Assembly (NCBI GenBank): GCA_947492745.1
Contig: CANLOE010000025.1
Span: 1-64,000 of the forward strand
Direction of reading: 5' to 3'
Length of the DNA: 64,000 bases
Source: an uncultured Cyclobacteriaceae bacterium
Lineage (GTDB): Bacteria > Bacteroidota > Bacteroidia > Cytophagales > Cyclobacteriaceae
The position numbers and the translations under genes were made by a program. Numbering within the stretch: the stretch's first letter is position 1; every line of letters starts with the position of its first letter. The notes under the pieces were generated by a model. It had not been told where the DNA came from, ran no database searches, and saw only the letters and a program-made list of their open reading frames with translations. This document shows positions 21,517-64,000 of this stretch, one piece after another.

Positions 21517-22263
21517 CTATCTTCCGAAAAGTGCCTCTATCCTATCGGCTACCTCGGGTTGATGAAAGGTGATGTCATGCATTTTCAGTTCCTGTTCGAT
21601 GACTTTGGGCAGATCTTTTTTGATACGCTGGGTCAGGTGCTCTTTCAGTGTAAGGAGGGACAACCTTGGTTTTTGTGCCAAAGAGCGTGCCAGACCAATG
21701 GCGGTATCGAGTACTTCCGCTTTGGGTACCACTGTCAAGGGCACCCCTCTTTCCCGTAGGTCTCCACCACGGTAGTTTTCCGCTGAAAAGAGCATCTCAT
21801 TTCCCAGGGTATCTCCTAGACGAAGGGGCACCATCATCGTGCCTCCCATACCGGGTGTAAATCCATACTTCATGAAATTCGTTGTATACACACTTTCCTT
21901 ACCCAAAATGGTGAAGTCCGAGTATAGACCGAACACAAAACCGCCGCCTATGGCATGTCCCTGCATGGCCGAGATCACGGGAACCTCGCATTCTAAAGGA
22001 TAGGTAAAAAAGGCCAGATCGTTGAAGCCCATTTCTTTTTTGTAGATCTTGAAGAGTTCCTCTTTTGTTCCCCCACAGCAGAAATAGTTATCGTATCCCG
22101 TGATAATGACTACTTTGTAGTGGCCTCTTTCCTTGATCAGCTCAAAAGCCTTGATAATGTTCTTGACCAGTTCGGTAGAAAAGGTATTTCGGGACGCTTT
22201 GTCCTCCAAGGTAATCTGGATGATATCATCCCCCAGCTCTTTTAGACTGACTATTTGTTCCAT
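21517..22263 (-). CDS. Beta-branching enoyl-CoA hydratase homologue ECH2 (PksI-like decarboxylase)
   Basis: Crotonase-fold protein of 248 residues expected to decarboxylate the 3-methylglutaconyl-ACP intermediate, leaving a beta-methyl branch with a double bond. It closely follows Bacillus PksI: VIITGYDNYFCCGGT, VISAMQGHAIGGGFVFGLYSDF, ESVYTTNFMKYGFTPGMGGT, RGGDLRERGVP, SLLTLKEHL and VIEQELKMHDITFHQPEV. The frame is open upstream to 22377, but the ATG at 22263 gives the PksI-like start (MEQIVSLKELGDDIIQI). It overlaps the end of the ECH1 gene by 13 bp, suggesting translational coupling. Last gene of the tight operon. Confidence 0.92.
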   Translation of the reverse strand: MEQIVSLKELGDDIIQITLEDKASRNTFSTELVKNIIKAFELIKERGHYKVVIITGYDNYFCCGGTKEELFKIYKKEMGFNDLAFFTYPLECEVPVISAMQGHAIGGGFVFGLYSDFTILGKESVYTTNFMKYGFTPGMGGTMMVPLRLGDTLGNEMLFSAENYRGGDLRERGVPLTVVPKAEVLDTAIGLARSLAQKPRLSLLTLKEHLTQRIKKDLPKVIEQELKMHDITFHQPEVADRIEALFGR

Positions 22264-23036: not shown

Positions 23037-23045
23037 AGCTATAGC

Positions 23046-24290
23046 TTATACGAATTCGTACTTTCTGTGAAAATCCTTGATTTCGGAGAACACCAATTTG
23101 TTCTTTCCCTTGACGTGCGCATAAGGTTCGGGAAACTCCTCGCGATCTACTTTAAAGTTCTTTGTGCCGAATTTCAATTTTCCATTGACATGAAAGGTAC
23201 TTTCATAATCGCTCATGGACATTTTGTAGCGGTCCTGTAGGTGATTGGATATGCCGTACTTCTTTAAGCTCTCCTGTGCCTGTGGACTCACCAGCCCGCT
23301 GTAGAACTCTGAGCAACAGCCCGACCCATAGGAGAATACACCCACCCTCTTGGTGCGGTCATAGTTACCGTTTTCGATGGCGCTCAACAGTGCCAAGTGT
23401 GCCGTAGCTCCCATGATATTTCCCACGCGTTGGCAGTAGAGCAGTGAGGGGGTCACTCTCTTTTGAAAATCAGCTTCGATGTAATCGGGTTTTGCTTTTT
23501 TCAGTTTTCTCATATTGGTACGGTGGGCACCCTTCACCATACCGCCAAAAGGCGTGTGAAAGGCCAGGTAGTCGAAGGTAGTTTCATAATCGGCACCTTC
23601 TACCCTATTCTGATACTCCTTGAAGGAGTTTTCACAACAATCCAGATAGGATAACAGGGACTTGTCCGCATCGCCGGCCTCGGCATCGGGTACGGGCCTA
23701 CAGGTATCCATGACCTCATAGCCGTAGTAGCCATTGGCACCTTTATCCACCTGAAACACGGTGGGATTGTCACTGACCAGAATAGCTACCGCTCCGGAAC
23801 CCGTACTGGGTTCGGCAAATGAAAAGTCCAGTGAGTCTTCGACGATATTGGTCCGCATAATGTCCGTACAGATAACCAAGGCTTTGCGGCCCGGTGCTGC
23901 TTGGGACAGGATGAAGTTCACGGCCATCTGAAAACCGGCGGTCCCGGAGTAGCAGGCATTTTTCAACTCGAACAAACGGCAGTTTCTGCTCAGTCCCAGA
24001 TAGTGGTGCATATAGGTGCTCATGGACTTGCCAAAGTCGATGCCCGATTCGGTGCAGGTGATGATCATATCTATTTTGCCCTTTTCTTCTTCGGACAGGT
24101 TGTCGATAATAGGTTTGGCGGCGTTCACACCATTGGAGATAGGATCTTCGTAGGGCATGGGAACGGTCTTTTCTTTCATCATAAGGTTTTCGAACCTTTC
24201 CATGTTCAGATTTCGTGCAACAGCCAGCTCTTTTACATCGAGTACTGCTGACCCACAATAGATATTGATAGCTTCTATTCCTGCTTTCAT
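23046..24290 (-). CDS. HMG-CoA synthase homologue for beta-branching (PksG-like HCS)
   Basis: Condenses the acetyl group of a donor ACP with the beta-keto group of an ACP-bound chain. The 414-residue protein has the catalytic cysteine in KNACYSGTAGF (C113), the glutamate in CTESGID (E81) and a histidine in AFHTPFGG. GVFSYGSGCCSEFYSG, near the C-terminal third, is typical of the PksG subgroup. It sits between the decarboxylating KS and ECH1 with gaps of 24 and 9 bp. Mevalonate-pathway HMGS is excluded by context. Confidence 0.94.
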   Translation of the reverse strand: MKAGIEAINIYCGSAVLDVKELAVARNLNMERFENLMMKEKTVPMPYEDPISNGVNAAKPIIDNLSEEEKGKIDMIITCTESGIDFGKSMSTYMHHYLGLSRNCRLFELKNACYSGTAGFQMAVNFILSQAAPGRKALVICTDIMRTNIVEDSLDFSFAEPSTGSGAVAILVSDNPTVFQVDKGANGYYGYEVMDTCRPVPDAEAGDADKSLLSYLDCCENSFKEYQNRVEGADYETTFDYLAFHTPFGGMVKGAHRTNMRKLKKAKPDYIEADFQKRVTPSLLYCQRVGNIMGATAHLALLSAIENGNYDRTKRVGVFSYGSGCCSEFYSGLVSPQAQESLKKYGISNHLQDRYKMSMSDYESTFHVNGKLKFGTKNFKVDREEFPEPYAHVKGKNKLVFSEIKDFHRKYEFV

Positions 24291-24314
24291 TAGGTTAAGT
24301 TTATAGATTATGTA

Positions 24315-25562
24315 TTAGTTTTTCTTGATTACCAGTGATGTATTGATACCTCCAAAACCGAAGCTATTGCTAAGGGTATGGTCGACATCGCCAGTGTATT
24401 CGGTTTCCCTGAGCCATTGGACCTGCTCATGGATGGGATTGTCCAGGTTATTACTTCGGTGGAGGAAGCCTTCTTTCATCTGTAGTAAAGAGGCCACCGC
24501 TTCAATAGCACCCGCCGCACTGAGTCCATGACCGATCAAGGATTTGGTGCTATTGACCTTGACCCGGGGCATATCCATGGCGATAATGGCTTCTACTTCG
24601 GTCTTATCGCCTATGACCGACCCGGTACCGTGTGTGTTGATATAATCGACCTGATCGGCCCGGAGCTGCGAATGGTCCAAAGCTTTTTTCATCGCCTCCA
24701 GCTCTCCTTGCATGGAAGGGTTGGGGTTTCTGTTGGCATCCATGCTTATCCCATAGCCCAGAATGCTTCCGTAGCCCTGTTGCTTCCTTTGAACTGGGTG
24801 TGAAGCGGATTCCAGAACAAGGCAGGCCGCGGATTGCCCATATACAAAGCCGGCATGGGCACGGTCAAATGGACGGTAGAGTTTTGACACATCGGTCGTT
24901 TCATCGGCACCGGCCATCGCACCCATTGCTGTGAAGCCTTGGTACTCAAAGAGAGAGAGGTCCATCAAAGGTGCCACAACGATGACCGTATCGTATTCTC
25001 CGGAGTTGATCAGGCGGCAGCCCTGGATGATTCCCATATTGCCACTGGCCGAAGCTGCTGCGATAGCATGCCCCTCACCTCGAATCCCCAATACTTCGGA
25101 CAAGGCTCCGACAATATCGGTATCGAAGAAGTTCAGGGCGTAGTTCGGTCTCAAAAAACGCAGTTTATGGGCATACTTTTCGTAGTTTTCATAAAGGTCT
25201 GCCTGCTGTATATTGCTACCACTGGAAACAATGGCCACTCTGGACCGGTCACTTACAGCATCTTGCAGCTGGGCATCGCACCAAGCTTCCAAAGCACAAT
25301 ACATCCCATAGGAAGCACTTTTCGACAAGTTCCGCATTCGTAGGACTCGGTCCATGACCTCCTGTTCCAATGGCAGTCGGGAGACGGCCTCCCTGAAGTC
25401 GAAACCTACCGTATTTCCTATGGGAAACGTATAGTCCACGCCTTCTTTTTCAAATAGGATTTTTGAAAAATGGGTATCCCCGTTTTTCAATGCTTCGGTA
25501 AACTTGGCTATGCCAATACCGATAGGGGTAATTGCCCCCAGTCCTGTTACGGTTACATTCAT
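24315..25562 (-). CDS. Free-standing decarboxylating ketosynthase (PksF-like, Cys-to-Ser)
   Basis: A 415-residue KAS-fold enzyme expected to decarboxylate malonyl on a small ACP, giving acetyl-ACP for the HMG synthase. The nucleophile position reads AAASASGN with S171 where elongating KS enzymes have Cys, the hallmark of this decarboxylase clade. The two histidines remain (INTHGTGS and KSLIGHG). The C-terminal SFGFGGINTSLVI is normal. It is placed directly after the two small ACP genes (16 bp gap) and before HMGS. Confidence 0.93.
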   Translation of the reverse strand: MNVTVTGLGAITPIGIGIAKFTEALKNGDTHFSKILFEKEGVDYTFPIGNTVGFDFREAVSRLPLEQEVMDRVLRMRNLSKSASYGMYCALEAWCDAQLQDAVSDRSRVAIVSSGSNIQQADLYENYEKYAHKLRFLRPNYALNFFDTDIVGALSEVLGIRGEGHAIAAASASGNMGIIQGCRLINSGEYDTVIVVAPLMDLSLFEYQGFTAMGAMAGADETTDVSKLYRPFDRAHAGFVYGQSAACLVLESASHPVQRKQQGYGSILGYGISMDANRNPNPSMQGELEAMKKALDHSQLRADQVDYINTHGTGSVIGDKTEVEAIIAMDMPRVKVNSTKSLIGHGLSAAGAIEAVASLLQMKEGFLHRSNNLDNPIHEQVQWLRETEYTGDVDHTLSNSFGFGGINTSLVIKKN

Positions 25563-25578
25563 TTTGGTAAAATCGTCA

Positions 25579-25827
25579 TTAAGGTAAGGTCATTTTTTCC
25601 AATAGCATATCCGCTAGCTCGCCGAGGTTGCCTGCTGTATGAAATTCAAATCGGTGAGCCACAAGCCCCAAATCTTCCATCATCGTTTCAATAAGTTCTG
25701 CCCGTTCAACAGACCCTCCACCCAATAGGCATAAAAAGGAGTCGTATTCCACCTCCTCTTTTTCCAGATTGGGTACGATATCCATCAGACGCTGTACAAT
25801 CAGATCGAACACCTCTTCCTTTTTCAT
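25579..25827 (-). CDS. Small free-standing acyl carrier protein 1
   Basis: An 82-residue ACP; phosphopantetheine site is S39 in LGGGSVERAELIETM, where most carrier proteins have DSL. Helices 1 and 2 (VFDLIVQRLMDIVPN and the stretch after S39) are recognisable. It lies 4 bp after a second small ACP gene and before the Ser-KS. Beta-branching cassettes usually have one donor ACP, so one of the two may carry another unit; which one is the acetyl donor cannot be told. Confidence 0.85.
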   Translation of the reverse strand: MKKEEVFDLIVQRLMDIVPNLEKEEVEYDSFLCLLGGGSVERAELIETMMEDLGLVAHRFEFHTAGNLGELADMLLEKMTLP

Positions 25828-25831
25828 TGCG

Positions 25832-26068
25832 TTATCCTTTCTCCACGATCATATCGGCCAGTTCGTTGATGGTCTGCGCCCCGACGAACTCTACTCTTGA
25901 GGATTCCGATTCCAATCGTTCCAGGGTCATGGTGATCAGTTCGCCCCTGTCCAGTGAGTTCGCTCCCAAATCGACAAAGGTATCGTCGAGTGATAGCTCC
26001 TCGTTTTCCAGTGCAGGGATGATTTCCAATAAGTTTTCTTTGATAATACTGACTACTTTCTGTTTCAT
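25832..26068 (-). CDS. Small free-standing acyl carrier protein 2
   Basis: A 78-residue ACP with S38 in the site LGANSLDRGELITMTLE, the more canonical of the two. It lies 13 bp after the AT-ER gene. The likely role is donor ACP (AcpK-like) of the beta-branching cassette, loaded with malonate by the AT and decarboxylated by the Ser-KS. It shares with its neighbour the (R)xELI segment after the serine but is otherwise clearly diverged, so the pair is not a recent duplication. Confidence 0.88.
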   Translation of the reverse strand: MKQKVVSIIKENLLEIIPALENEELSLDDTFVDLGANSLDRGELITMTLERLESESSRVEFVGAQTINELADMIVEKG

Positions 26069-26081: not shown

Positions 26082-28325
26082 TTAGTTGTTGATAATCGAT
26101 AGTTTTTCTTTCATGAGCTTGGCCGCTTCCTCCATGAGCAAAGTGCCTATCTCATCGGTATGGCGTTCTCTCCAGTTTTCCAATCGGGAACCTTTCACCC
26201 ATTGGTTGAAGGCTCCCATCGACGAGCCTGTATGCACCTGAAAGTTCACCTTTCTCTCCATATTGCCTTCAAAGGCCAAGCGACTACTGAAACCGAAATA
26301 AGCACGGAATATCAGGGCCATTTTATTTCTGGGGTTCTTTTCTGCTTTTTCGATTTCTGCTTCCTTTCCATTTTTCATTTTATAGGCCCTTACTTCTTTC
26401 CACACTTCGTCGAGTGTTTTTTCGAAGTATCTATTTTCCAATTGCTGCACTATTTTTTCGGGGATCTCTTCTATAGCATTGTATTGCTGATAGAGATTGA
26501 ACAGTTTATTGGCCCTAACGGGAAACAATACCCCTTTTTTCAATACCTGCACCTTGGCCCCGATTTCGAACATGTCTCCCGCAGGGGCATAATCCGTATC
26601 CCGTACGTCCACCTCCTGCAAGATCTCCTTCACGCTCTCACTGGTACCCGCCTCGACGGTACACTGATTGATAGAACCTGTCAGTACAAAATCGGCCCCC
26701 ATCATAAAGGCACAGACAATGGACTGTGGCGTGCCTATACCGCCCGCAAGACCGACCCTGATCGATCGATCGTAGGCATATTGTCTTTTACAACTATCCC
26801 TCAATTGCTGCATGGCAGGCAAGAGGACCATAGCTATACCACGGTCCGTATGCCCTCCGGAGTCGGCCTCCACGCAGATATCATAGCTCATGGGTACTTT
26901 CTTTGCATAGGTGGACTCTTCAATACTGATCAGTCCCTCTTCCAAGAGCCTATTGACTATCCTCTCCGGTGCCGGGCTCATAAAAGCTTTGGCCACTTCG
27001 GGCCTGGATACTTTTGCCACTATCCTATGGGTACAGCTGATTTCACCATTACCCATTTTTTTCAATCCTTTCAATCGATAATAGACCAGTGCTGGTGTCA
27101 TGGTCATGAAAGCTGCCGCTTCTATGGTATGGATACCATGGTTCAGGTAAAGGCTGACGATGTCCATCTCCCTATCCGGATTATCCAAATGATGGATCAG
27201 GTTCAGCCCATAGGCCTGACTGGGAGTCAATTGTCCTTGGAGGTACCGGATGTCCTCTTCGATCTGTCGCAAGCTCATACCTGCCGTCCCCAGAAAACCG
27301 AGCATGTTCGACTTTGCCAAACGCAGCACCATCTCTTTGGATGCAATCCCTTTGTACATGGCCCCCGTCATATAGGCATACTTCACTTTATATTCTTCCC
27401 GGAAGCTTGCAGAACCCAGACTACTTCCACAAAACCCGTTCGTTGTTTTTTTTTCAGGGCTTATTTTCTCCACCACGGCAGTGGCTTTTACTTCATGTTT
27501 ATTTTTTATTTCGATGACCATTTTGGTCAGGATGTCACCTCCTATTTCCTCGAAATCCCCAACACCACTATCCAAGAGGTGAGCTATGGTATCTACCCAT
27601 AGGACCGAACTCGCTATCTGCGTGGCCAGTAGTTTTTTCACTTCTCCGTTGTCATATGGTCTCGCAGTCGCATTGGCAATCACGGGTACTTTCAATGGCG
27701 AAAAACGGACCTGTTCCAAAAAAGCCTCAAACTCCGAAGCAGCATTGGCCATGTATTTCGAATGAAAAGGTGCGCTGACGAACAGTGGGATAATCTTGAT
27801 TCCCTGAGCATCAAAATCCTTGACGACGGTATCGATCTCTTCCTTTTTTCCAGCGATGACAATCTGCGTGGGCGTGTTGTAGTTGGCGACCTCTACACCG
27901 TAGCCGCCTTCTTTCAGTTTTTCCCGTACTTGTCCCGCTTCCAGGCCCAGTACAGCGGCCATTCCTCCACCGGAGGCTGCCGCCATCAATTCGCCTCTCT
28001 TTTGGACCAACTTCAGGCCCGACATAAAATCAAAAGCTCCGGCACTGAGCAGGGCATTGTACTCGCCCAAACTGTGCCCTATGAGATAGTCAGGAGTCGA
28101 ACCGTTCTGCTGTTCGTAATACCGAAAGGCATTTACCGTATACAATGCGGGCTGCGTGAACTGGGTCTTGCCCAGTTCTCTCTTTGGGTCCTTTAGGCAA
28201 AGCTCTTCCAAATCATAGCCCAAGAACTCCGATGCTGCCAAAGTCTCTGTTCTATATTGTTGAAAAAGTCCCTTTCCCATGCCTCTGTGCTGGGCACCTT
28301 GCCCAGGAAACATTATCGCTTTCAT
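26082..28325 (-). CDS. Trans-acting acyltransferase-enoylreductase fusion (PksE-like AT-ER)
   Basis: Supplies extender units to the AT-less modules and carries a PfaD-type flavin enoylreductase. Of 747 residues, about 1-285 are AT: MFPGQGAQHRGMG, GHSLGEY with S85, KRGELM with R110 (malonyl carboxylate binder) and VSAPFHS with H188, consistent with malonyl-CoA specificity. About 300-735 are ER: MTGAMYKGIASKEMV, EADSGGHTDRG and the flavin-site GLAGGIGTPQS. It is the only intact malonyl-type AT seen, so it presumably loads all modules. The ER can serve modules in trans in addition to the two built-in MDR-type ER domains. It begins 3 bp after the large PKS stop codon. Confidence 0.94.
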   Translation of the reverse strand: MKAIMFPGQGAQHRGMGKGLFQQYRTETLAASEFLGYDLEELCLKDPKRELGKTQFTQPALYTVNAFRYYEQQNGSTPDYLIGHSLGEYNALLSAGAFDFMSGLKLVQKRGELMAAASGGGMAAVLGLEAGQVREKLKEGGYGVEVANYNTPTQIVIAGKKEEIDTVVKDFDAQGIKIIPLFVSAPFHSKYMANAASEFEAFLEQVRFSPLKVPVIANATARPYDNGEVKKLLATQIASSVLWVDTIAHLLDSGVGDFEEIGGDILTKMVIEIKNKHEVKATAVVEKISPEKKTTNGFCGSSLGSASFREEYKVKYAYMTGAMYKGIASKEMVLRLAKSNMLGFLGTAGMSLRQIEEDIRYLQGQLTPSQAYGLNLIHHLDNPDREMDIVSLYLNHGIHTIEAAAFMTMTPALVYYRLKGLKKMGNGEISCTHRIVAKVSRPEVAKAFMSPAPERIVNRLLEEGLISIEESTYAKKVPMSYDICVEADSGGHTDRGIAMVLLPAMQQLRDSCKRQYAYDRSIRVGLAGGIGTPQSIVCAFMMGADFVLTGSINQCTVEAGTSESVKEILQEVDVRDTDYAPAGDMFEIGAKVQVLKKGVLFPVRANKLFNLYQQYNAIEEIPEKIVQQLENRYFEKTLDEVWKEVRAYKMKNGKEAEIEKAEKNPRNKMALIFRAYFGFSSRLAFEGNMERKVNFQVHTGSSMGAFNQWVKGSRLENWRERHTDEIGTLLMEEAAKLMKEKLSIINN

Positions 28326-28328: not shown

Positions 28329-30676
28329 CTATTGATTTTTATGATTTTCTGTTTCGTTCAATTGTGCGAACCATGCTGAACAATGGGGTTCTTTCGTTAC
28401 CGAAAAATGGTCTCCTTCGGCATTGATAACCCTTAGGTTACTGTAATGGGCCTTCCAACCCAAATCTTCGCTTGCTCCTTTCAAAAATTCGCCCTGGGCT
28501 CGAATCAAGGTGGCCGATACATCGAAAAGGCCCGATAGTTCATGGTCGGTATCCAAGGAGGCATGGTACACCTCCCACATCTTATGCAGTTTATTCCTGT
28601 CCAGACGCACACCTGCTTTGTCCAATAGGTCATGAATCACTGCCACTCTTTTGGATTTGGCAGTTCTCATGATTTTCTTGGTCATTTTATCGATGTCCAA
28701 TACCAAGGTTTCATCGGATTGGTCCACTATCGTCCTAATAAAAGCCGTAATGCGGTCATTGACCTTTAGGTTCAGCGTATTGGAATAACTGTCAATAAGA
28801 ATTACATTCCCGATAATCAGATCCGGTATGTCTTTCAGTTGTTTCAGCATTTCGTGGAGTACAAGACCTCCATAGCTATGGGCCACGATCTGCACTGGAC
28901 CTGTAGGTGCCAGTTCCTTGATCAGGTCGAGGTTGTGTGCTGCCATGGCCGCCAGTGTGGTCAGTGCTTCCCCTTCTTCCCTTACTCCTTTCATCTGTAG
29001 TCCAAAAACATTACCAGAGGCTGAAAACTTCTCGGCCAGCTCATAGTAGCCGTCAACAATACCGGGCATACCGGGCAGGATATAGGTGTGTCCTGTTTCA
29101 CGGTTCCCATCGTTCTTGAAATAGATGATATCCTTATGATAGTTTTCCTTAGGGGCTTTCAAATCCTGCTCAATCAGGCTTAACAAAGCGCCCAAGTCCT
29201 GCTGCACCAGTACTTGTCCCATTGTGAGGTGAAGGTCCAAAGCTTCATTGAGTCCGCTCATCAGGTCCAACACCTGTAGTGAAGTCAGGTCCAGTTCGGA
29301 GAGTGGGAGGTCCATGGAGATATCAGCGAGTTCCTTTCCCGTTATGTCTTTGAAAACGGTATCGATTTTCTCTTTCTCTTTACTGGGAATGGTCTCCAAA
29401 GGTGTTCTTTCCTCGGGTTCCTTCTCTGGGACCTGTACCTTCCCTCCTTCTTCTTCGGGAAGGGGCAGCGCAGCTGTTCCTTTTCCCTTGTACTCTTCGA
29501 GTATGATATGGGCATTGGTGCCTCCTACAGCGAAGCTGTTCAGTGCGGCCCTACGGGGATAGCTACCGTTCTTCCATGGAATAGCGTTGTCTTCCAGTAC
29601 CAGGGAAAGTGATGGGGACAGATCGCTGTTGACTTCTCCCAGTCCGGGTATGCCCGGTATGGTCTTGCTTCTCAAGGCCATGATGACTTTGATCAGGGAG
29701 GCCATACCCGAGGCGATTCCCGAGTGCCCCACGGTTGGTTTTATGCTGCTGATGCGCCACTTTTTATCCTTTTCACTGCTCAGTTCTTTGTAAACAGCGT
29801 CTATTGCCCCCAATTCTATAGCATCCGAAATACGGTTGGCGATACCATGTGCTTCGATATAATCGATAGTATTGGGGTCTATTTTTGCATTTTCAAGGCT
29901 TTTCCTTACGGCTGATTTAATGCCTTTGGGATTAGGGGCTTCCCAAGAGATATTCTTTCCTCCATGCAGGTAACTGCTTCCCTTTACCAGAGCCTGGATA
30001 GTATTTCCTTCCGACTCGGCGAGGTCGAGGCGCTTGAGCATGACCATGCCGATACCCTCACTCCGGACGATACCATCGGCCTCCTGACCGAAGCTTTTCA
30101 TCTCCCCTTCTTTGCTCAATAGTCCCACTAGGTCTTCCATTCCTTTGTATGTGGCCGTTTCCTTAGTAATGACATTGACACTTCCCACGATAGCTTGTGT
30201 ACATTCTCCATTGTGGATGGCCTGCACTGCTTTGTGAATAGCCTGAAAGGAACTGGTACAGGCAGAATTGACAATCTCACTCGGACCCGATAGGTTGAAC
30301 TCATAGGATATCTTCGAGGCCAACATGGAGGCCATGCTTCTACTGTTTTCCATGGATTGGTTATCAAAGTGCTGTGTCAGACCTATAAAGACACCCGTAT
30401 TGCTCCCGTAGAGCTCTTTACGGCCCATCCCTGAGGAGGCCAGGACCTTGGCCAAAACTCCGAAGACCAATTTGTGCTGGCGCAGGTCTGAAGTGATATC
30501 GCCCTCTATGGGTTTGTCCAACAACTGTTGCAGGTCTTTGTCCACCACTCCTTCATTGATTCCCATCCAGCCTTTGGACGCATTCGGTCTACTTTCTCCC
30601 GATAGGGAGTTGGACCAGAGTTCGCCCGGGTTGTCCGCACCTGGGAAGAGCCCCTCGGCCCCTATGATAGCGATGT
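28329..30676 (-). other. Terminal module: variant KS*, ACP, thioesterase
   Basis: KS* (about 30676-29490) keeps Cys (C6509, NSACTSSF) and a His in TVGHSG, but HGTGT is HGIAN and its N-terminal region is shortened. An ACP with LDLTSLQVL (Ser near 29285) and an alpha/beta-hydrolase TE (about 29145-28329) follow. The TE nucleophile is S6970 in AHSYGG, with EGDHFSV for the histidine. Whether KS* elongates or only passes the chain on is open. Confidence 0.85.
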
Positions 30677-49784: not shown

Positions 49785-49799
49785 TGTCAATAGAGTTGT

Positions 49800-55700: not shown

Positions 55701-58700
55701 TTTTTGGGATACTGCGCTAGGTGCCGTGATACCGCTCGTGGTACCGTCCTGATTGATGGCACTGCCTTTGATCACTCCATAGATAGGGTCACCGTCCCTG
55801 AGGGCATCCTCCATGCGCTTCATGATCAGGACCCCCACTCCTTCGCCGGGAACAAAGCCATTGGCCCGGTTATCGAAGGTGTAGCATTGCCCGTCCGGGG
55901 ACAACATGCCCGCCCTGCTCGTCTTTTTGTAGAACTCGGGCGTGATGAATACGGAGACACCGCCGGATATGATGATGTCCGATTCCCTCTGCTGCAAACT
56001 CTTGCAACCCATATGCATGGCGACCAAGGAACTTGAACAGGCCGTATCTACGGCCAGTGCGGGCCCTTTCAGGTCCAGGTAGTAGGAAATCCTTGAGGCC
56101 AGTATTGAGCTGGCATTTCCCCAGAAGGCGGAAGCCTCCAGGTTTTTTTCTTTGGAAAAATCCATGTAGTCCCCAGTAGCGGCCCCTACGAATACACCGC
56201 ACTTGCTCGTTGCGAGTTGTTCGGGATTGATGGCCGCATCTTCTATGGCCTTCCAGCAATGCTGTAGAAAGAGCCGCTGTTGCGGGTCCATCATTTCGGC
56301 TTCGCTCGCGGATATCCTAAAGAACCAAGGGTCGAACTTGTCGATATCGGTCAGAAAACTCCCCCATTTGCTATTGGTCTTGTCGGGTGCGTTTTTATCC
56401 TGACTGTAGTGCCGGTGTTTGTCCCATCGTTCGGCGGGTACTTCCTCGATCAGGCTTTTCCCGTCTCTCAGGACTTCCCAGAACGCTTCCAGATTTTCCA
56501 CGGGTCCAAATTGGCCACTCATACCGATGATGGCGATATCATCGCTACCATGGACCGTATTCACCTCGGCTGAGGGCGCTCGGTCCCGTTTTGGTTCATA
56601 TTCCTCCTTCTGTACCGCCCTCCTGTATTTCTCAGCAATGTTCAGGACCACCTTGCCGATATTGCTCCTATTCTCCAAGCAGCGATAGGCTGCTACATAC
56701 TCTTCCAACTCGAATTGCTGTTGAATGGTACTTTTCAATACTCCTCCGGCAATCAGGTCATGGCATTCCTGCCAGAGGTGCCGGGCATAATCGGTATCTT
56801 CGGCCAGCAAGCGCAAAAGGTCCAACCCGATAAAGGTCTGGTTGTCCGAAAAAATACTGAGGTCAATGGCATTGGCTGATTTGATTGCCGTCATGGACAG
56901 TTCTACATAGCGTCCCCTTTTGGCGAGGCAATTGATGCCTTTCTGTATGTTGTCACCGGACAGTGTGTTGATGACCACATCCACTCCCCTGCCCTCCGTG
57001 ATTTTTTCGACTTCCTTTTCGAAATCATCTTCGATATAGTTGATGACGTGCCCCACGCCCATTTTTCGTAGGTAATCCAACTTTGCTGCACTACCTGCTG
57101 TAGCAATGATGCGGACATTTCTACTTTGTGCCAGTTGGACCGCGGCCAGCCCTGTTCCTCCTGTGGCCGTCTGGATAAGGATAGTCTCTCCCGACTGTGG
57201 GTTGGCCCTTCGAAATGCCTCGACCATCGTCATGGAAACAGCCAACAGAGAGCAACTTTCGGAAAAGGATAATGCGTCCGGCATGCGAAAGAGGTTATCT
57301 TCCCGCACATTGATATGTGTGGCCTGCAAACCCAACTTCTTATCGGCAATAGCGATGACTTTTTCTCCAATAGCAAGGTTTTTGACCTTGGACCCCTTTT
57401 TCACTACGACTCCCGAGGCTTCGAATCCAGGGGTAAAGGGATAGGCGGGCATGGTGGGATATAGCCCCTTGACGCAGAGCAGGTCTCCGAAGTTAAGGGA
57501 AAAGCTTGCTACAGCCACCTGCACCTCATCCTCCCGTGGGGTCTCGGGCCGGAAGTTGACCAAATGAATGTCCTCGATGTCGCCGGGCTGTCTCAGCAGG
57601 AGTTTTCTGCCCATGCCCATTGGTGCAGGGTATCCGTTGCTCTCCGATAGGGGTGTACGGCTCGGTGCTATAGGCTGTGGTAGCGGCTCTGTCCTGACGG
57701 CAGGGGCCGACATGCTAGCGATAGGTTTCATAGCGGGTTTCATCTCTTCAAACTGTAGTCTCAGCTTAGGTGCGTACGCTTGCACCAGGTACTCGGTCAG
57801 CTTATGCAGGGTCGGGTAATCGAACAGGGTCGTGGTCGCTAGCCGTGCATCGAGCCGTTGATTGATGCGTTTTATCAAGGATAGTCCCAAAATCGAGTCT
57901 ACTCCATAGTCGGCCATGGGCGTATGGATATCCAATTGTTCCGGGGTCATTTTCAGGATCTCCCCTAGAACTCTTCTCACGAAGGTCAATGATCGCGCGT
58001 ACAGTTCCTTTTCTGACATTGTAGGTACAGCCTTAATAGTGGTCGTGTTATCTCTTGCAGGGATGGTGATGTAGTCCTCGGACACGGTTGGCGGAGCTAT
58101 TGGCGACTTGGACCTTACCCTATCAAGTAGTCGTGAGGACAATGCTTTTGGGTATTCCTTGCCTAGATGGCCGGCAAACTTTCTTATCGTGGGATAATCA
58201 AAGAGTGTGGTCGTGGGCATTTGGCTTTCAACCTTTTGATTGATGGCCTTGATCAAAGTCAGCCCCAGAATGGAATCGACTCCATAATCTGCCATGGGCG
58301 TATCGATATCCAACTTCCCGATATCCATTTTCAATATCTCGGCCACCTGCTCTTTGACCAAGGTGATGCCCAAGTGCTCTATTTCCGATGGGTGGGGTTC
58401 CTGTGATGGGAATTGTCCCTCTGCTCCTGTCGTATCGGAGTACTGCATTGGAAATCCATTGTTTTGTGATAGCGGTTCGGGCTTGTACTCCATAGGCACT
58501 CTCAACACTCCATCACTATGCGCGACCAGAATCTGTTGTGGTAGGCGGTCCTGTTGTGGATAGGAAGTCGGGGCCGAAAATCCGGTCTCCATCAACACTT
58601 GCTGCCATTGTTCCCTTGAGAGGCCGGGGCTTCCTTCCAGCCTGATTTCCCCATCCCCGAACATCCACCAGCCATCCAGCAGACCAAAGGTCAATGTGGT

Positions 58701-61700
58701 AAACAGTTCGGTCCGGGCGATTTCGTTGAGCAATAGCAGTCCTTCTTTTTTCAGTACGGCCTTGATATTGGTCAGGGTATGGTGAATGTTCTTGGTGGCA
58801 TGCACCACATTGGCACCGATAACGATGTCGTATGCGCCCAGTGCGATGCCCTGTTCGCCGGGAAAACGCTCTATATCGAACATGGCCGTTTCCATATAGG
58901 GAGCCATTTCCCTAAAGTTGTTTTCGGCGCGGAGGAGAAAACTTTTGGAAAGGTCGGTATAGGTATAGGTCACTAGATCCTTGAAAGGGGCCAGTTTTTC
59001 AAACAGATGCTGGCTGGTACCTCCCGTACCGGCGCCTACTTCCAGGATTTTTATCTTTTCCCCATGGGCCAGACGGGGAGCACTATTGCCCACACTGTCA
59101 CAGACTACCTTGGCCAAGAGCTCATTGAAGTAATTGGCGCGGTGATTGCCTTTGTAGAATCCACTGACATGATCCATGCTGCCTTCGGGGAATATGATGT
59201 CGGTCGCCTTGACTTTTCCCGAAATGATATCCTCAAAAGCGTCCAGGCAAATTTTCAACAGGCGGATATGTGCCCGGTAGTCCCCGTTGCTCTTTCCGAT
59301 ACTGCTCAGTTCGGAATCCAGATCGAATGTTTTCAAGGCCTCTTCCGCCTTTGCGCTCAGAAGGGCATTGCCGCCCTGTAAGGTCATATAGTTCCTATCG
59401 ACCATCATGGTCAGTAGTACACGGAACAGCCGCTCGTACTTGGGGAGTATGCCCAGTCGTTCTCTAAGCATATGCAGGGAGGACAGTTTATCACCGTACA
59501 GTTTCGTTTGCATCCTTTCGAATACCCGGACAAAGCCCAGACAGCAGGCTTCCATCAGTCTGGACTCGACTACTTCATCGGACCGGAAGGGTTGGGTTAT
59601 GGGTTCTTGGGGCGTTAACCGCGAAGTGTTCTGTACTTCCTGGACCTTTCGGTCCTTGGTTATTTCCTTGGTGAAGGATATGTCTGCATTGTCGGCATCC
59701 ATTTTTATGGCAATGAGCTGTGACAGGGTACCGGAGAGTACTTTTTCCACTACCTGCATGCCTTCCGCAGGGGATATACTCTCGATACGCAAGGCCTGCA
59801 TTCTTTTCCTGTATTCATGGGACGAGACTATTCCCACTTCTCCCCAGTAGCCCCAATTGATGCTGTATGCAGGGACCTTGGGCAATCGGTCTTCCAAACT
59901 TTGGGCAAAACTGTCCTTATAGATACAGCCTGCGGCATAATTGGCCTGACCTGCGGCTTTCCATTGGGATATGACCGATGAGTAGAAGCAGATAAAATCA
60001 AGTTCTTCCTTTTTGAAGACCTCTACTAGGTGAAAACTGCCCAATGCCTTGGGGTCAAAGGATTTTTTGAAATCGGCTTCCTCCATGTGGCTCAGCAGGA
60101 CATCGTTGAGTACAATGGCCGAGTGGAAAATACCGTTGATATTGAGTCCGGCAGCTTTGATTTCCTGATATACCCGAACCAGACTTTCTTCGCTATTGGC
60201 ATCGCACTGGAAGTACAAGGGACGTTTTCCCTTCTTTTCCATCTCCATCATGGCATGAAGGATTGCTCCCTCAGCGGGCCTTCTTCCCAGCCATATTACC
60301 TGTGCATCGTATTGGGAAAGAAGGTATTCCGTGGTCACTTTGCCCAGACCTCCGGCACCGCCCAGTATCAGATAGGTTCCCTGAGCCTTCAGTTTGCCCA
60401 AGGCACTGCCACCGAGCTCCAATGGTGCGGGATAAAGTTTTCTTTGGTAAGGAAGTCCATTTCTATAGGCCGTAACTATCCCTTCGGGGTCGTAGGGAGT
60501 GTCCAGTATGTTCTCCAATAGCTTGCCCTCAAGGCTTGGCGTATCCAGGTCGATCACACGGACGCTCCAGTGGGGCTGTTCCTTGGCCAATGACCCTATC
60601 AGGCCCGCAATACCGCTACCGACAAAGCTGACCTTATCATTGGATAGCACCTTTTGGGTGTTGTGCAGGAGTATGGTCAGGCGTAGATTCTTTTCCGCAT
60701 AGTCCGAAGACAGGAGTTTTTTGAGTATCCTGAAAACGGCCAATTCCCTTTTTTCGACTTCTTGGGCCACATCGAAGCCCTGTTGCCCGACCGTGCCGGG
60801 TATACAGCCCTGCAATAGGTACAGCTCCTCCACCTGCGGTCCATTCACTGCCCATGTGCTCTCCACTGAGACCTGTGCCTTTCTTTGTTGCAGCAGGGAC
60901 GATAGGCTTTGGGACAAAGGGGAATCGGTATCTCCTATCAACATTATATGTTTCGGGGTGACCTGTGCCGGGGGTGACCAAGAGCCGATCCTATCCCATA
61001 GGGGCAGGTACAACATGTCCGATGGCTTTGGGGTACCTCCGCTTACTAGGGCCGAAGGTACAAGGGCCGCTGTTCCGGAGGAAGTGGTATGCAGAGGCAA
61101 GGCCACAAAGTCCCGGAAACTGAGCAGTACTCTTCCTTCTTCATCGAAGAGGTCCACATCATATTTTGCTATACGGCTATCATGGTGGGTGTGCTTTTTT
61201 CTGGCCCTGCACCATACTGTGTGGGTCAGGTCTCGGTAGAAGTGGACACTGCCGATACTGTAAGGGAGCTGTAGTCCTCCCGCAGCACTCTCTTCCTGGG
61301 CAAGACAGATGCATACTTGTAGCGCACTATCGAGCAGGCCCAAGTGATGGGTATCTCCGTGGTATCCGTTCAGGGAAATTTTGGCCAGCCCTTCGGTGGT
61401 ACTGTAGTAAAGCTGTTCCATGCCCTGAAAACTATCACCATAGCCCAAACCCAAAGCGATGAACAGGGCATAGCAATCTTTTTTATCTCGGGTATAGGGT
61501 AGTTTTTCCCTAAGTGCTATCAGGTCCACGGGTGGTGGCTCGGGTAAGGGTTCCGTACTCAGGTAACCTTGGCCATGGAGTACGGTCTGTCCTTCTTCCC
61601 CCGAAGCGGTCCGGACTTCATAGCGTAGGCTGCCTTCCGGCAAAGGGTGTAGGTGCGTTGCTATGGTAGCGCTACCTTGAGGGGCTTCGATGGGAGTCCT

Positions 61701-64000
61701 CCAAACGACTTCTTTCAGTTGCGTGATCTTTTCGTGAAGGTAACGGTGTCCCGCAGCTCTGGCCATCTCCAGATAGGCCACGCCGGGGAGAATGCCCCTG
61801 CCCTTGACCTGGTGATCTTGTAGAAAGTGCTCTGCTCCCGTAAAATGACTATCAAATCTACATCCATGCTGGTCCGATACGTTATGGTGCAGTAGTGGAT
61901 GTTCTTTGGCCGTGATGCTTTGGAGCGGTTTTGTGGCTCCCGTTATCCAATGTTTTTCCTTGGCAAAGGGGTAACAGGGCAGATCGATTTTCTGTGGATG
62001 ACCTTCGGGATAGAGCATGGCCCAATCGATGGCGGTCCCACTGACCCACAGCCGTGCCAAGGAGATGAGATCTCGACCGGCGATGGCGGTCTTGAGATGC
62101 GACCGGCCCGCAGCACTGCTTGGGGAGACGGATTTTTTTCCTTTTTTACTATTTCCCTCGAAGGAATCAAGGGAAATATCGTCTGCCAGATACCGGGCCA
62201 GCCCGTCCAATAGTGCGGGTCTGTCCGAAACGACCAGGGCAAAGCGCTCTTCCATAGCTTCCCTGCCCAGTTGTAGGGTATAGGCGATATCATGTAGGTT
62301 TTCCTGCTCATGGGACAGTACATGGTTCCGGAGATGGGTCACCTGTCTTTTCAGGGCCGCTTTATCCCTTGCGGACAGTAGGATGAGTGCCGGATCCTGC
62401 TCTTGGGATACTGTCGGCCTTTTCTGCACTGGATACTCTTCGACCACGACATGGGCATTGGTACCACTGAAACCAAAGCTATTGATGGCCGCTCTTCGAA
62501 GCTGTCCTTGGGCCGTGGACCAGTCCTGTAGGGCGGTGGCCACATAAAAGGGGCTGTTCCTGAAATCGATTTCGCTGTTGGGGGCATCGTAGTGGAGACT
62601 GGGCACCAGCTTACGGTGCTGTAGCATCAGTATCGTTTTGATGAGTCCCGAGATACCTGCCGCCTCGGCCGCATGTCCGATATTGGTCTTTACCGAACCG
62701 ATGGCACAAAACTGTTTTTGGGAAGTGTGCGTACCGAAGGTATGCTGTAGGGCATCGACCTCTATAGGATCGCCCAGCTTGGTACCTGTTCCATGTGCCT
62801 CGATATAGCCAATGGTTTCAGGGTGTAGATTGTATTGGGAGTAAACGTGTTTTTGCAGCTCACTTTGTGCTTGTGCGCTCGGTGCGGTAATGCCATTGGT
62901 CCTACCGTCCTGATTCACTCCACTTCCCTTGATGACAGCGTATATTCTGTCCCCATCTCTTTCGGCATCTTCCCGGCGCTTCATCACCAGTACTCCGACT
63001 CCCTCTGCGGAGACGATACCATCGGCCCCATTGTCAAAGGTCCTGCACTTTCCCTCTTTGGAAGGCATACCGACCTGACTGGTCCAGACGTGGAGCAGGG
63101 GCGTGTTCATCAAGGATACCCCACTGGCCAGGGCCAGCTCCGACTCTCCCGACAGCAAGCTTTGGTAGGCCCTGTCAATGGCTACCAATGAGCTGGAACA
63201 AGCGGTGTCCACGGTGATGGCGGGGCCTCTCAGGTTCAGGAAAAAAGAAATCCTTGCCGCCAGTATTGCCTGCGAATTGCCCATAAAGGCCAGTCCTTCT
63301 TTCTCCGCACCGCACTTCGCCAAAAGATCGCGGTAGTCCCCGGAACTGGCACCCACAAAAACACCCACTTTCCTTTTGCCCAGCGATTTGGGAGCATAAC
63401 CCGCATTTTCAATGGCCCGCCAGCTCTCTTCGAGCAACAATCGCTGTTGGGGGTCCATGATTTCCGCCTCCTTGGGTGAAATACCGAAGAAGAGCGCATC
63501 GAACTTATCGACGTCTTTCAAAAATCCTCCCCACTTGCTGTAGGAAGTTCCCTCATGCCCTTGTTCGCGATTGTACCAGTCCATATCGCCCCAGCGACTT
63601 TCATCGATTTCCTGAACGGCACATTTGCCGTCCCTCAGGTTTTCCCAGAACTCATGGACATTCCCGGCACCGGGAAACCGGCAGGAAAGCCCTACAATGG
63701 CCACATCCGTATTCCCGTTTTTGGATGCTCTTTTTTCAGAAAGCATCGGTTTGCGCTGCGCTATCGTTTGGGGTCGTACCTGCGCGCTCCCATTGACTTC
63801 AGTGCCGCTCAATTGATGTTGATGTACTTTACGTAAGGTGAGGCCTTCTACTCTCAATAGTCGTTTTTTGTCCGCCCCGAGGATTTCCATAGTAAAGGTC
63901 AGCTCTTCTTCACTGGCCGAAAGGCACTCCATGGCGCAGGTATAGGGCATATCGGCCCCCAGTTCCTGGTGAAGGCTTACCTTGCTCAACTGGTAGGGCA
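49800..64000 (-). CDS. Trans-AT polyketide synthase, upstream protein (partial, 5' end beyond window)
   Basis: At least 4,730 residues; the frame stays open to the window edge, and the first visible residues already lie inside a DH-fold domain, so the apparent TTG start at 63989 is internal. Order: end of a DH-like domain, KS, DH, KR, C-methyltransferase, ACP, ACP, ER, KS, DH, KR, ACP, KS, ACP. No AT domain. It ends on an ACP and a short tail (AFLKAHLKNMNL) that may dock to the next protein, whose N-terminus starts with another ACP. The stop lies 15 bp before the next ATG, so the two PKS genes are one transcript. All three KS domains have the Cys-His-His set. Confidence 0.95.
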   Translation of the reverse strand, partial: PYQLSKVSLHQELGADMPYTCAMECLSASEEELTFTMEILGADKKRLLRVEGLTLRKVHQHQLSGTEVNGSAQVRPQTIAQRKPMLSEKRASKNGNTDVAIVGLSCRFPGAGNVHEFWENLRDGKCAVQEIDESRWGDMDWYNREQGHEGTSYSKWGGFLKDVDKFDALFFGISPKEAEIMDPQQRLLLEESWRAIENAGYAPKSLGKRKVGVFVGASSGDYRDLLAKCGAEKEGLAFMGNSQAILAARISFFLNLRGPAITVDTACSSSLVAIDRAYQSLLSGESELALASGVSLMNTPLLHVWTSQVGMPSKEGKCRTFDNGADGIVSAEGVGVLVMKRREDAERDGDRIYAVIKGSGVNQDGRTNGITAPSAQAQSELQKHVYSQYNLHPETIGYIEAHGTGTKLGDPIEVDALQHTFGTHTSQKQFCAIGSVKTNIGHAAEAAGISGLIKTILMLQHRKLVPSLHYDAPNSEIDFRNSPFYVATALQDWSTAQGQLRRAAINSFGFSGTNAHVVVEEYPVQKRPTVSQEQDPALILLSARDKAALKRQVTHLRNHVLSHEQENLHDIAYTLQLGREAMEERFALVVSDRPALLDGLARYLADDISLDSFEGNSKKGKKSVSPSSAAGRSHLKTAIAGRDLISLARLWVSGTAIDWAMLYPEGHPQKIDLPCYPFAKEKHWITGATKPLQSITAKEHPLLHHNVSDQHGCRFDSHFTGAEHFLQDHQVKGRGILPGVAYLEMARAAGHRYLHEKITQLKEVVWRTPIEAPQGSATIATHLHPLPEGSLRYEVRTASGEEGQTVLHGQGYLSTEPLPEPPPVDLIALREKLPYTRDKKDCYALFIALGLGYGDSFQGMEQLYYSTTEGLAKISLNGYHGDTHHLGLLDSALQVCICLAQEESAAGGLQLPYSIGSVHFYRDLTHTVWCRARKKHTHHDSRIAKYDVDLFDEEGRVLLSFRDFVALPLHTTSSGTAALVPSALVSGGTPKPSDMLYLPLWDRIGSWSPPAQVTPKHIMLIGDTDSPLSQSLSSLLQQRKAQVSVESTWAVNGPQVEELYLLQGCIPGTVGQQGFDVAQEVEKRELAVFRILKKLLSSDYAEKNLRLTILLHNTQKVLSNDKVSFVGSGIAGLIGSLAKEQPHWSVRVIDLDTPSLEGKLLENILDTPYDPEGIVTAYRNGLPYQRKLYPAPLELGGSALGKLKAQGTYLILGGAGGLGKVTTEYLLSQYDAQVIWLGRRPAEGAILHAMMEMEKKGKRPLYFQCDANSEESLVRVYQEIKAAGLNINGIFHSAIVLNDVLLSHMEEADFKKSFDPKALGSFHLVEVFKKEELDFICFYSSVISQWKAAGQANYAAGCIYKDSFAQSLEDRLPKVPAYSINWGYWGEVGIVSSHEYRKRMQALRIESISPAEGMQVVEKVLSGTLSQLIAIKMDADNADISFTKEITKDRKVQEVQNTSRLTPQEPITQPFRSDEVVESRLMEACCLGFVRVFERMQTKLYGDKLSSLHMLRERLGILPKYERLFRVLLTMMVDRNYMTLQGGNALLSAKAEEALKTFDLDSELSSIGKSNGDYRAHIRLLKICLDAFEDIISGKVKATDIIFPEGSMDHVSGFYKGNHRANYFNELLAKVVCDSVGNSAPRLAHGEKIKILEVGAGTGGTSQHLFEKLAPFKDLVTYTYTDLSKSFLLRAENNFREMAPYMETAMFDIERFPGEQGIALGAYDIVIGANVVHATKNIHHTLTNIKAVLKKEGLLLLNEIARTELFTTLTFGLLDGWWMFGDGEIRLEGSPGLSREQWQQVLMETGFSAPTSYPQQDRLPQQILVAHSDGVLRVPMEYKPEPLSQNNGFPMQYSDTTGAEGQFPSQEPHPSEIEHLGITLVKEQVAEILKMDIGKLDIDTPMADYGVDSILGLTLIKAINQKVESQMPTTTLFDYPTIRKFAGHLGKEYPKALSSRLLDRVRSKSPIAPPTVSEDYITIPARDNTTTIKAVPTMSEKELYARSLTFVRRVLGEILKMTPEQLDIHTPMADYGVDSILGLSLIKRINQRLDARLATTTLFDYPTLHKLTEYLVQAYAPKLRLQFEEMKPAMKPIASMSAPAVRTEPLPQPIAPSRTPLSESNGYPAPMGMGRKLLLRQPGDIEDIHLVNFRPETPREDEVQVAVASFSLNFGDLLCVKGLYPTMPAYPFTPGFEASGVVVKKGSKVKNLAIGEKVIAIADKKLGLQATHINVREDNLFRMPDALSFSESCSLLAVSMTMVEAFRRANPQSGETILIQTATGGTGLAAVQLAQSRNVRIIATAGSAAKLDYLRKMGVGHVINYIEDDFEKEVEKITEGRGVDVVINTLSGDNIQKGINCLAKRGRYVELSMTAIKSANAIDLSIFSDNQTFIGLDLLRLLAEDTDYARHLWQECHDLIAGGVLKSTIQQQFELEEYVAAYRCLENRSNIGKVVLNIAEKYRRAVQKEEYEPKRDRAPSAEVNTVHGSDDIAIIGMSGQFGPVENLEAFWEVLRDGKSLIEEVPAERWDKHRHYSQDKNAPDKTNSKWGSFLTDIDKFDPWFFRISASEAEMMDPQQRLFLQHCWKAIEDAAINPEQLATSKCGVFVGAATGDYMDFSKEKNLEASAFWGNASSILASRISYYLDLKGPALAVDTACSSSLVAMHMGCKSLQQRESDIIISGGVSVFITPEFYKKTSRAGMLSPDGQCYTFDNRANGFVPGEGVGVLIMKRMEDALRDGDPIYGVIKGSAINQDGTTSGITAPSAVSQKNLEVGLYRQLGIDPESIAYVEAHGTGTKLGDPIEFRALKSSFEEFTDRKGYCGLGSIKTNIGHAAMAAGVAGVIKVMLSFKHDQLPPTLNFIKANEHIDVENSPFFINDKLNPWPDEVKGPKRAAISSFGFSGTNAHMVLEAAPLTRSRAFIGEGPAIVLLSAKSNIALRKQVENLKTHIEQHPNENLYDIAYTLQVGRQAMDERLAIVASDMEVLLEHMTDYLNGSQGQKGLYLGSKQHNDPSKSKQDIGKEHPIEEQAEEWARSWVHGAAIDWNRMYPNGKPQRIALPTYPFAKERHWIPQPSDRELLKNRPGRLHPLLHTNDSDLRQQRFTSTFSGEEHFLAEHRLMADKVLPGVAYIELAREAGERSLHQKITQLRDITWLSPIKVNGIPQEIETSLQPGQNGELFYQISSLGKSKDRQVHGQGKLTTKVLPRPERMDLEAIKSRLGESRAGQDCYQMFRSIGLHLGPSFQGIQKIHFNEEETLSEIELPKGEGYVLTPGALDSALQTTAISLNMVREEWGLLMPFNVREVDVHRPLPDKIYSYVKRTAKGKEEGPVLHYDIDLLDETGEVLLRFREFAFIPVEAPLATVKTHLYKNEWKARSLSTDMDVESFSENLSILIASDNPQLAEKLEEILEEEVDSIGHGSEYAYFLEVLNKVKGKIRKGAKGQLILLCEEQHYHEYGFISGLLKTVSQEHPMLRVKLLVVDALRLQEIGDLATILQKEQDDPAQEVRYRNGIREVRQLCPVKQQREASPKAYLKEGGTYLITGGFGGLGQLFSRHIGTFKDTRIVLTGRSELDESKKSILSHLPNAIYYQCDMSDRKSVKALIAGIVDKYGRLDGVLHSAGSIRDSLIVNKTPSEIQQVLGVKIQGAKNLDEATATLPMDFMLYFSSIAALLGNVGQADYAAANAYLDRYASYRNRLVEQGKRHGHTCSINWPIWNRGGMTLEEESKKFLKQKWGLEPMPDEQGLKAFDRVMQAKMTQAVVFYGDSERFMEKTNGHDRDSAPIKDKDTSPNHVADPEKERDGLLYELSEMASRIIKKNTKDIRKDKEFGEYGFDSILFTKFANELNQRYDLEVQPTVFFNYPTLEELAGFMVKNYKAELDRKKHTQTEQEALPEAGETFFREGAPRFWPVSEPAPERTDIQGKTEPDEPIAVIGMGCRFPGSPDLETFWQNLKENRDLISEVPQDRWDWREYYGDAKEDPTKTKSKWGGFISDIDKFDPLFFNISPKEAAWMDPQQRMVMEVVYHALQHAGIAAESLKGTDTGVFFGVATADYAALLNKHEKSNQAQFSIGTSHSLLVNRISYFLDTHGPSEAVDTACSSALVAIRKAVENIRNGHCTMAIAGGVNALLSPELTLSFSNSGMLSEEGRCKSFDERANGYVRGEGAGAIILKPLSRAVEDGDPILGLIRGTAENHGGKANTLSSPNPNAQKELLLKAYGNARIAPDKVSYIEAHGTGTPLGDPIEVEGLKSAFSQLFRESGQKVPDRPYCAIATVKANIGHLEAASGIAGVIKVLLAMQHGLLPGNPHLQQPNKYLKLEKSPFYIQKETTVWKTSGAIPKIAGVSSFGIGGSNAHVIIEEPPKSPSSPYKGTAPLIFVLSAKNPKKLKELARAMKDHLASNPQVDLYDLAYTLQVGRDGMEERLAILADNITDLSERLSAYGKSQNTVGMFHGNTQEEEPSIGDEDLNRSLKKKEATALAEAWCKGSKIDWTVLYQKEGKPRKVVLPGYPFEKRRCWFDENRQEPKKVENKKTHVLPKRELRVALEVLPLPSNEIAREEKANTVDMGRVYLPEKKMDSMEKRMPPEQGMEQVKQVIVTHLKRLLYLEEEELDLRKPFSELGLDSILGVEFLKALNKDLAMDLKASKLYDYPLVEELAAYLTDAKQGKAKLQTQDVDSQRNDTSAGPPATEKISLATTLEAEEYGTQVRSAQETNGTTKPKQNSSAFLKAHLKNMNL
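50020..52230 (-). other. PKS module KS-ACP ending the upstream protein
   Basis: KS (about 52228-50925) has VDTACSSALVAI, EAHGTGTPLGDP and KANIGHLEAASG. It is followed by a long linker without catalytic domains and an ACP (GLDSILGVEFL, Ser at 50139-50141). With the ACP and isomerase-like domain at the start of the next protein it would form one split module. Confidence 0.82.
52385..56542 (-). other. PKS module KS-DH-KR-ACP
   Basis: KS (about 56540-55270; VDTACSSSLVAMHMG). DH (about 54758-53940) has AEHRLMADKVLPG, where Ala replaces the Gly of HxxxG, and ALDSALQ. KR (about 53910-52700) has TGGFGGLG, YFSSIAA and GQADYAAAN. ACP has GFDSILF (Ser near 52505). An olefin is predicted, a suitable substrate for a later double-bond shift. 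Confidence 0.88.
56630..63710 (-). other. PKS module KS-DH-KR-MT-ACP-ACP-ER
   Basis: KS (about 63708-62430; VDTACSSSLVAIDRA). DH (about 61909-61090) has DHQVKGRGILPG and LLDSALQ. KR (about 61015-59700) has LGGAGGLG, YSSVISQ and GQANYAAGC, with Cys at the usual Asn position. C-methyltransferase (about 59570-58590) has the SAM motif EVGAGTGGTS. Two ACPs carry YGVDSILGL (Ser near 58273 and 57894). The ER (about 57590-56635) has QTATGGTGLAAVQLA. An alpha-methylated, fully reduced unit is predicted. Confidence 0.88.
63825..64000 (-). other. C-terminal end of a DH-fold domain, cut by the window edge
   Basis: PYQLSKVSLHQELG and MEILGADKKRLLRVEGL resemble the last strands of a PKS DH/isomerase domain. 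A short linker leads straight to a KS with no ACP between, the same arrangement as DH*-KS in the next protein, so a second ACP-DH*-KS unit is likely. Catalytic residues are outside the window. Confidence 0.6.

Follow-up and report, generated by a model that had tools for sequence, protein, structure and literature searches.

Gene clusters for trans-acyltransferase (trans-AT) polyketide synthases (PKSs) have been called 'rare' in Bacteroidota (PMC9248904). Their products in this phylum include elansolid from Chitinophaga, as cited in two papers (PMC9248904, PMC7930024), and cuniculene from Aquimarina (PMC9323603). Among pathways that introduce beta-branches, bongkrekic acid has two (PMC12560621), and in virginiamycin the Vir ACPs carry Phe in place of Trp at the flag position, from which the authors argued that Trp is not decisive; the mark that singles out ACPs for beta-branching, the Trp flag or surface features, is still debated (PMC10006238).

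The window analysed here, a DNA stretch of 64,000 nucleotides, represents bases 1-64000 of a 70,341 bp contig (C25) from a host genome of 7.10 Mb in 458 contigs. It was found to carry a trans-AT PKS cluster (contig coordinates 18446-69335, minus strand) that overshoots the right window edge by ~5.3 kb and probably encodes a complete colinear line directing the synthesis of a methyl-rich, oxygen-poor polyene carboxylic acid. The original prediction, namely a trans-AT PKS with a full HMG-ACP synthase (HMGS) cassette in an agar-degrading member of the Bacteroidota, with its genes at 21517-64000 on a single strand, is supported by the domains, the cassette and the agar genes described below. That all of these PKS genes lie on one strand, the minus strand, is confirmed.

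Arrangement of the gene cluster

The genes are arranged in the order gene A, gene B, AT-ER, ACP 1, ACP 2, Ser-KS, HMGS, ECH1 and ECH2 with intergenic gaps of at most 24 bp, as had been predicted, and ECH1 and ECH2 overlap. To the left of ECH2, gaps of 377 and 354 bp are followed by genes for an acyl hydrolase and a MATE-family exporter, both additional to those originally listed. Upstream of gene A (start ~69335) is ~1 kb with no long ORF, with -7-like Bacteroidota sites (TAnnTTTG) 446 and 492 bp from the gene; because of this ORF-poor stretch and the TE that ends gene B, the assembly line appears to be complete on C25. With Pfam E-values as low as 1e-95 and reading frames of more than 6,500 codons, a chance origin of the cluster is not an issue. 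GC content is 39-43% in the flank and 48-53% in the cluster (window 20000-64000), but as the other PKS regions of the host genome are mostly at 44-49%, composition alone is no proof of transfer. An Rfam scan of the window gave zero matches, no tRNA adjoins the cluster as a sign of an integration site, and the genes examined around it included no tailoring gene (oxygenase, glycosyltransferase or similar).

Gene A (49800..69335, with 49800..64000 in the window) encodes 6,511 aa, a loading unit followed by M1 to the first part of M4 (LnmK-like-ACP, KS1-ACPx4-DH', KS2-DH-KR-cMT-ACP-ACP-ER, KS3-DH-KR-ACP and KS4-ACP). Gene B (28329..49790; 7,153 aa) encodes the rest of M4, M5-M9 and a terminal unit (ACP-DH', KS5-ACP-ACP, KS6-ACP-ACP-ER, KS7-DH-KR-ACP, KS8-DH-KR-ACP, KS9-ACP and KS10(short)-ACP-TE). 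Together they include ten KS and no AT domain, the Ser-KS being additional. Nine of the assembly-line KS are in the window (at 63.7, 56.5, 52.2, 48.5, 45.8, 41.9, 37.5, 33.2 and 30.7 kb), in line with the nine AT-less modules predicted. KS1, in M1, is beyond the right edge, and the extension in that direction that had been proposed completed the line with this one further KS and the LnmK-like-ACP loading unit.

LnmK is the methylmalonyl acyltransferase/decarboxylase of leinamycin. The loading domain gave PDB matches to 4hzo, 6x7l and 4hzn that are weak (phmmer E ~3e-4, over ~95 residues), and a Pfam search of the domain returned no LnmK match. The LnmK-like assignment draws also on a six-way alignment, and similar domains stand at the start of PKSs in Aquimarina RZ0, Flavobacterium H122, G021 (a genome of the same family) and two other host contigs. 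At the other end of the line (KS10-ACP-TE, 28362..30677), KS10 (29487-30677) is short and has HGIAN replacing HGTGT. It belongs to a clade of short near-terminal KS with this replacement, common to host contig C12, Aquimarina RZ0, Chitinophaga CF118 and Flavobacterium H122, whose members are followed by ACP-TE or by an ACP and further carrier domains.

The AT-ER, two ACPs, Ser-KS, HMGS, ECH1 and ECH2 are all as originally described. A trans-AT fused to a PfaD-type trans-ER (AT-ER, 26082..28325), with a GHSLG motif and a predicted role in malonyl loading, supplies the free-standing AT that defines a trans-AT PKS. The HMGS cassette itself has every member, namely a donor ACP (ACP 1, 25832..26068, GANS), a decarboxylating KS with Ser replacing Cys (Ser-KS, 24315..25562, AAASASGN), the HMGS (23046..24290, PDB matches CurD/PksG), the dehydratase ECH1 (22251..23036, PDB matches including PksH and also close to 8ahq) and the decarboxylase ECH2 (21517..22263, start likely the ATG near 22263, PDB matches PksI and CurF-ECH2), with the second discrete ACP (25579..25827, GGGS) between the donor ACP and the Ser-KS. 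The discrete acyl hydrolase (20168..21139) had PksD (8avz) as its best structure match. In it GTSL replaces the GHSL of ATs, and the malonyl-binding Arg seems absent ('DQAIM' against 'QKRGE' in the AT-ER, read by eye); a G(A/S/V)SL-like motif rather than GHSL and loss of this Arg are the published features of PksD-type hydrolases (PMC11775670). The MATE-family exporter (18446..19813) probably exports the product.

Host contig C140 (L168, 81-3489) carries a second AT, an AT-ER and fragments of a Ser-KS (~46 aa) and of an HMGS (~56 aa, 73% identical to that of C25), and is judged from these to hold a truncated or frameshifted beta-branching cassette.

Modules predicted to introduce beta-branches

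No KR is present in M1, M4 (split between KS4-ACP in gene A and ACP-DH' in gene B, 48654..52223), M5 (KS-ACP-ACP, 45990..48551), M6 (KS-ACP-ACP-ER, 42060..45788) or M9 (KS-ACP, 30864..33179), and all five have ACPs of the beta-branch type, a single one in M9 and more than one in the others. Judged by domain content and ACP type, five of the ten building steps, including the three consecutive ones M4-M6, look set for beta-branching, which places a carbon branch where it is unusual, in M6 followed by enoyl reduction. ACPs were classified with one profile built from Trp-flag ACPs of non-Bacteroidota clusters and another from KR-module ACPs, with the flag position masked and C25 sequences omitted from training. 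All 11 ACPs of the KR-less modules scored +16 to +29 bits for the beta-branch type, and the embedded ACPs of the KR modules M2, M3, M7 and M8 scored -1 to -69, the classes here, like the KS labels below, being assigned by domain logic in clusters that are for the most part uncharacterised.

In a tree of 202 KS, each labelled by its preceding module, the nearest neighbour from another cluster gave the correct label for 33 of 35 beta-branch KS and for 94 of 134 KS over all labels. This KS phylogeny, one of the checks proposed at the outset, agreed with the module order for 9 of 10 KS. KS2 (62430..63707) and KS5 pair with the KS that follows a post-ACP DH' in G021, in the clade following beta-branching with such a domain, while KS6 and KS7 fall within the beta-branch/beta-branch-ER clade. 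KS3, KS4, KS8 and KS9 group with KS found after MT or DH-KR modules, matching their upstream modules, which by domain anatomy are M2 (processing part DH-KR-cMT-ACP-ACP-ER, 56613..61901), M3 (KS-DH-KR-ACP, 52386..56540), M7 (KS-DH-KR-ACP, 37719..41909) and M8 (KS-DH-KR-ACP, 33363..37517). The placement of KS2-KS9 also supports an order in which gene A precedes gene B, with M4 divided between the two. KS10 is in a separate terminal clade and uninformative on M9. A run of three beta-branching modules was found only in C25 and G021 among the clusters compared, many of which were seen in part; a Roseofilum cluster (L074) has two in a row and the others one. The open-access literature yielded no trans-AT cluster with runs of such modules, which is weak evidence.

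The flag is the residue six positions after the phosphopantetheine Ser; outside Bacteroidota, 70 of 72 beta-type ACPs have Trp there, a feature that is predictive of branching but reported to be non-essential. Within the phylum it is Leu in 14, Ile in 10, Phe in 10 (counting one recovered after its motif had been misread), Trp in 8, Tyr in 4 and Met in 1, and seven of the eight Trp flags are in the host's own cluster C3, the other in C12. The beta-branch ACPs of C25 have F, L, Y or I and no Trp; given the Phe reported for virginiamycin and the argument that Trp is not decisive, this is no reason to doubt branching. The HMGS of C25 belongs to a clade of 14 sequences (FastTree support 1.0) with those of G021, Sporocytophaga, Chitinophaga, Flavobacterium, Aquimarina, Chryseobacterium and a Crocinitomicaceae MAG, in which no Trp occurs wherever flags were seen, and the HMGS of C3 and two from Kordia fall outside it. 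It is tentatively proposed that the Trp-less C25 system, with its Bacteroidota-type HMGS, and the Trp-flagged C3 system, with an HMGS of another lineage, coexist with no cross-talk (this absence being only a hypothesis), and that C25 unites three consecutive beta-methylations, isomerisation and reduction into an isoprenoid-like methylation pattern.

Host contig C12 (locus L160) encodes a PKS of 10,825 aa with tandem beta-type ACPs at 8323 and 8472, one flagged by Trp and the other by Leu. No HMGS was found on the part of the contig examined, and this PKS may borrow the cassette of C25 or C3.

A DH' domain follows the carriers of M1 and M4 (~48648-49475 in M4), and these two group with that of G021 in a clade apart from ordinary DH. 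Enoyl isomerases (EI) have lost the catalytic Asp of dehydratases and kept the His. Both residues are kept in 79 of 83 aligned rows of ordinary DH; the DH' clade keeps the His and has Asp (M1), Asn (M4) or Ser (G021) in the Asp column. The change in M4 is as expected for an EI, and the M1 domain, which retains Asp, may have a function other than isomerisation. A model of the M4 domain (pLDDT 82) has the double-hotdog fold, with Z 22.5 to 4u3v, a solved EI, and Z 22.7 to the pyran synthase 6b2v; in the fold search DH, EI and pyran synthase were tied. An AF2 single-sequence model of the same domain (pLDDT 40) was discarded.

Alternative readings and the predicted product

Binding by the ACP alone leaves the outcome of branching open, as BonI in vitro acts on a module whose product retains a carboxymethyl branch (PMC12560621). 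It is thus conceivable, though doubtful, that the same line branches at only some of its five KR-less modules and passes on a beta-keto group at the rest, giving an oxygenated and possibly cyclising product. Such a reading would suit M9, with its single ACP and an uninformative KS downstream, whereas M1, M4, M5 and M6 have clearly beta-type ACPs and are followed by KS of beta-branch clades. A similarly low probability is given to the post-ACP DH' domains being pyran synthases, vinylogous dehydratases or inactive relics rather than isomerases, which the tied fold comparison and the Asp of M1 would allow. Loss of Asp with His kept in two of three clade members speaks against this, as does the separate clade of the following KS, suggesting that a distinct product is handed on, and no module builds the hydroxyl that a pyran would need.

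That C25 is an already known pathway, such as that of elansolid or cuniculene, which has turned up in a new host is highly improbable: the cassette gene order is common to clusters of Chitinophaga, Flavobacterium, Aquimarina and Sporocytophaga, but none of the related clusters compared has the module order of C25 and the best KS identities are 49-68%. Improbable, to a lesser degree, is a silent or decayed cluster, for which the truncated remnant of AT, AT-ER, Ser-KS and HMGS on C140 might be cited; on C25 itself all frames are intact and the inspected active-site motifs are present.

In the preferred reading, of branching at all five modules with isomerase-like DH' domains, the LnmK-like domain would place a short acyl starter onto the first ACP, and nine extension modules would follow, supplied with malonate by the free AT of the AT-ER, while the acyl hydrolase would clear stalled short acyl chains. 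Ser-KS, ACP, HMGS, ECH1 and ECH2 would convert the beta-ketone of M1, M4, M5, M6 and M9 into a beta-methyl branch; the new double bond would probably be shifted by the post-ACP dehydratase-fold domain in M1 and M4 and reduced by the ER in M6. M2 would give an alpha-methyl, fully reduced unit, and M3, M7 and M8 plain double bonds. From the short KS10 the chain would pass to ACP-TE, be released and then be exported by the MATE protein. Read colinearly, the predicted chain consists of the starter, a beta-methyl unit with a shifted C=C, an alpha-methyl saturated unit, a C=C, the M4 beta-branch (possibly exomethylene or shifted), a beta-methyl C=C, a beta-methyl saturated unit, two C=C units and a beta-methyl C=C ending in the TE-released acid. 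We infer a lipophilic polyene acid of about C26-C29 with up to five beta-methyl branches and one alpha-methyl branch; as the line itself provides no hydroxyl, the product is more likely to be linear than a macrolactone.

Occurrence, host and relation to known systems

Of 148 genomes of the family, only 2, those of the host and G021, have PKS-type HMGS genes (a third match was weak and non-PKS), and these genes were found in none of 395 sampled genomes of the phylum besides the host. HMGS matches of 25-36% identity in other Bacteroidota were interpreted as primary HMG-CoA synthases or different enzymes of the thiolase fold rather than parts of PKS cassettes. The statement that few such systems are described from Bacteroidota holds as regards rarity, but they are not absent, as elansolid, cuniculene and the more than a dozen HMGS loci of the phylum retrieved for comparison attest. 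The suggestion of a new product is uncontradicted: no relative shares the module order or exceeds ~77% in protein identity, and no known cluster with the same domain order and high identity throughout was found among those compared. The closest matches are at 49-68% for KS and 77% for HMGS. Judged from these, the cassette and its logic are known, the module order is new among the clusters compared, and the product is probably new.

Genes in the left flank (window 1489-11033) show the host to be agarolytic, in keeping with the original prediction: a GH16 beta-agarase (best structure 4asm, E 1e-96) and a GH117 anhydrogalactosidase (4ak5, E 2e-127) are encoded there together with a kinase of KDGal type and an aldolase of KDPG type. 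The secreted agar-utilisation proteins have T9SS sorting tails, and their genes adjoin the PKS cluster. The host genome has 62 ketoacyl-synthase matches, most of them in PKS genes, and is very rich in these for Bacteroidota; on contigs C3, C12, C25, C38, C41, C50, C57, C22, C128 and C129 it has, besides the cluster described here, several more large trans-AT clusters as well as cis-AT PKS/NRPS-like genes.

C25 offers a complete, experimentally tractable pathway to a probably new polyene acid in a phylum with few known polyketides. With Trp-flag and Trp-less HMGS systems in one genome, the question of ACP marking becomes testable by ACP and cassette swaps, and the range of structures open to design would be widened by runs of three beta-branch modules that carry isomerase-like and ER domains in line.

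C25 resembles the Bacillus bacillaene system (PksX) in its HMGS (matching PksG), ECH1 (PksH), ECH2 (PksI) and acyl hydrolase (PksD), in the logic of AT-ER, donor ACP and Ser-KS, and in having dehydratase-fold domains, which in bacillaene include an enoyl isomerase, but differs in loading unit, module order, Trp-less ACPs and five rather than few beta-branching modules. Virginiamycin M and bongkrekic acid likewise depend on HMGS chemistry on acceptor ACPs, with one or two branches and with other hosts and architectures. Elansolid, reportedly described by Teta in 2010, and cuniculene are, like the predicted C25 product, trans-AT products of Bacteroidota, compared here by description only. Clusters of Chitinophaga sp. 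CF118, Aquimarina sp. RZ0 (two), Flavobacterium sp. H122 and a Sporocytophaga MAG have the cassette order of C25, AT-ER/ACP/Ser-KS/HMGS/ECH1(/ECH2/AT), and an HMGS of its clade, with LnmK-like-ACP-KS loading in two and an HGIAN near-terminal KS in several; they have one to three separated beta modules in another module order, in contrast to the five of C25 with their run of three. G021 (contigs C161, C164 and C211, a fragmented assembly) shares the LnmK-like loading (53%), the HMGS (75%), the three-beta run and the post-ACP DH' clade, but its order is beta, beta-ER, beta-DH', whereas that of C25 is beta-DH', beta, beta-ER.
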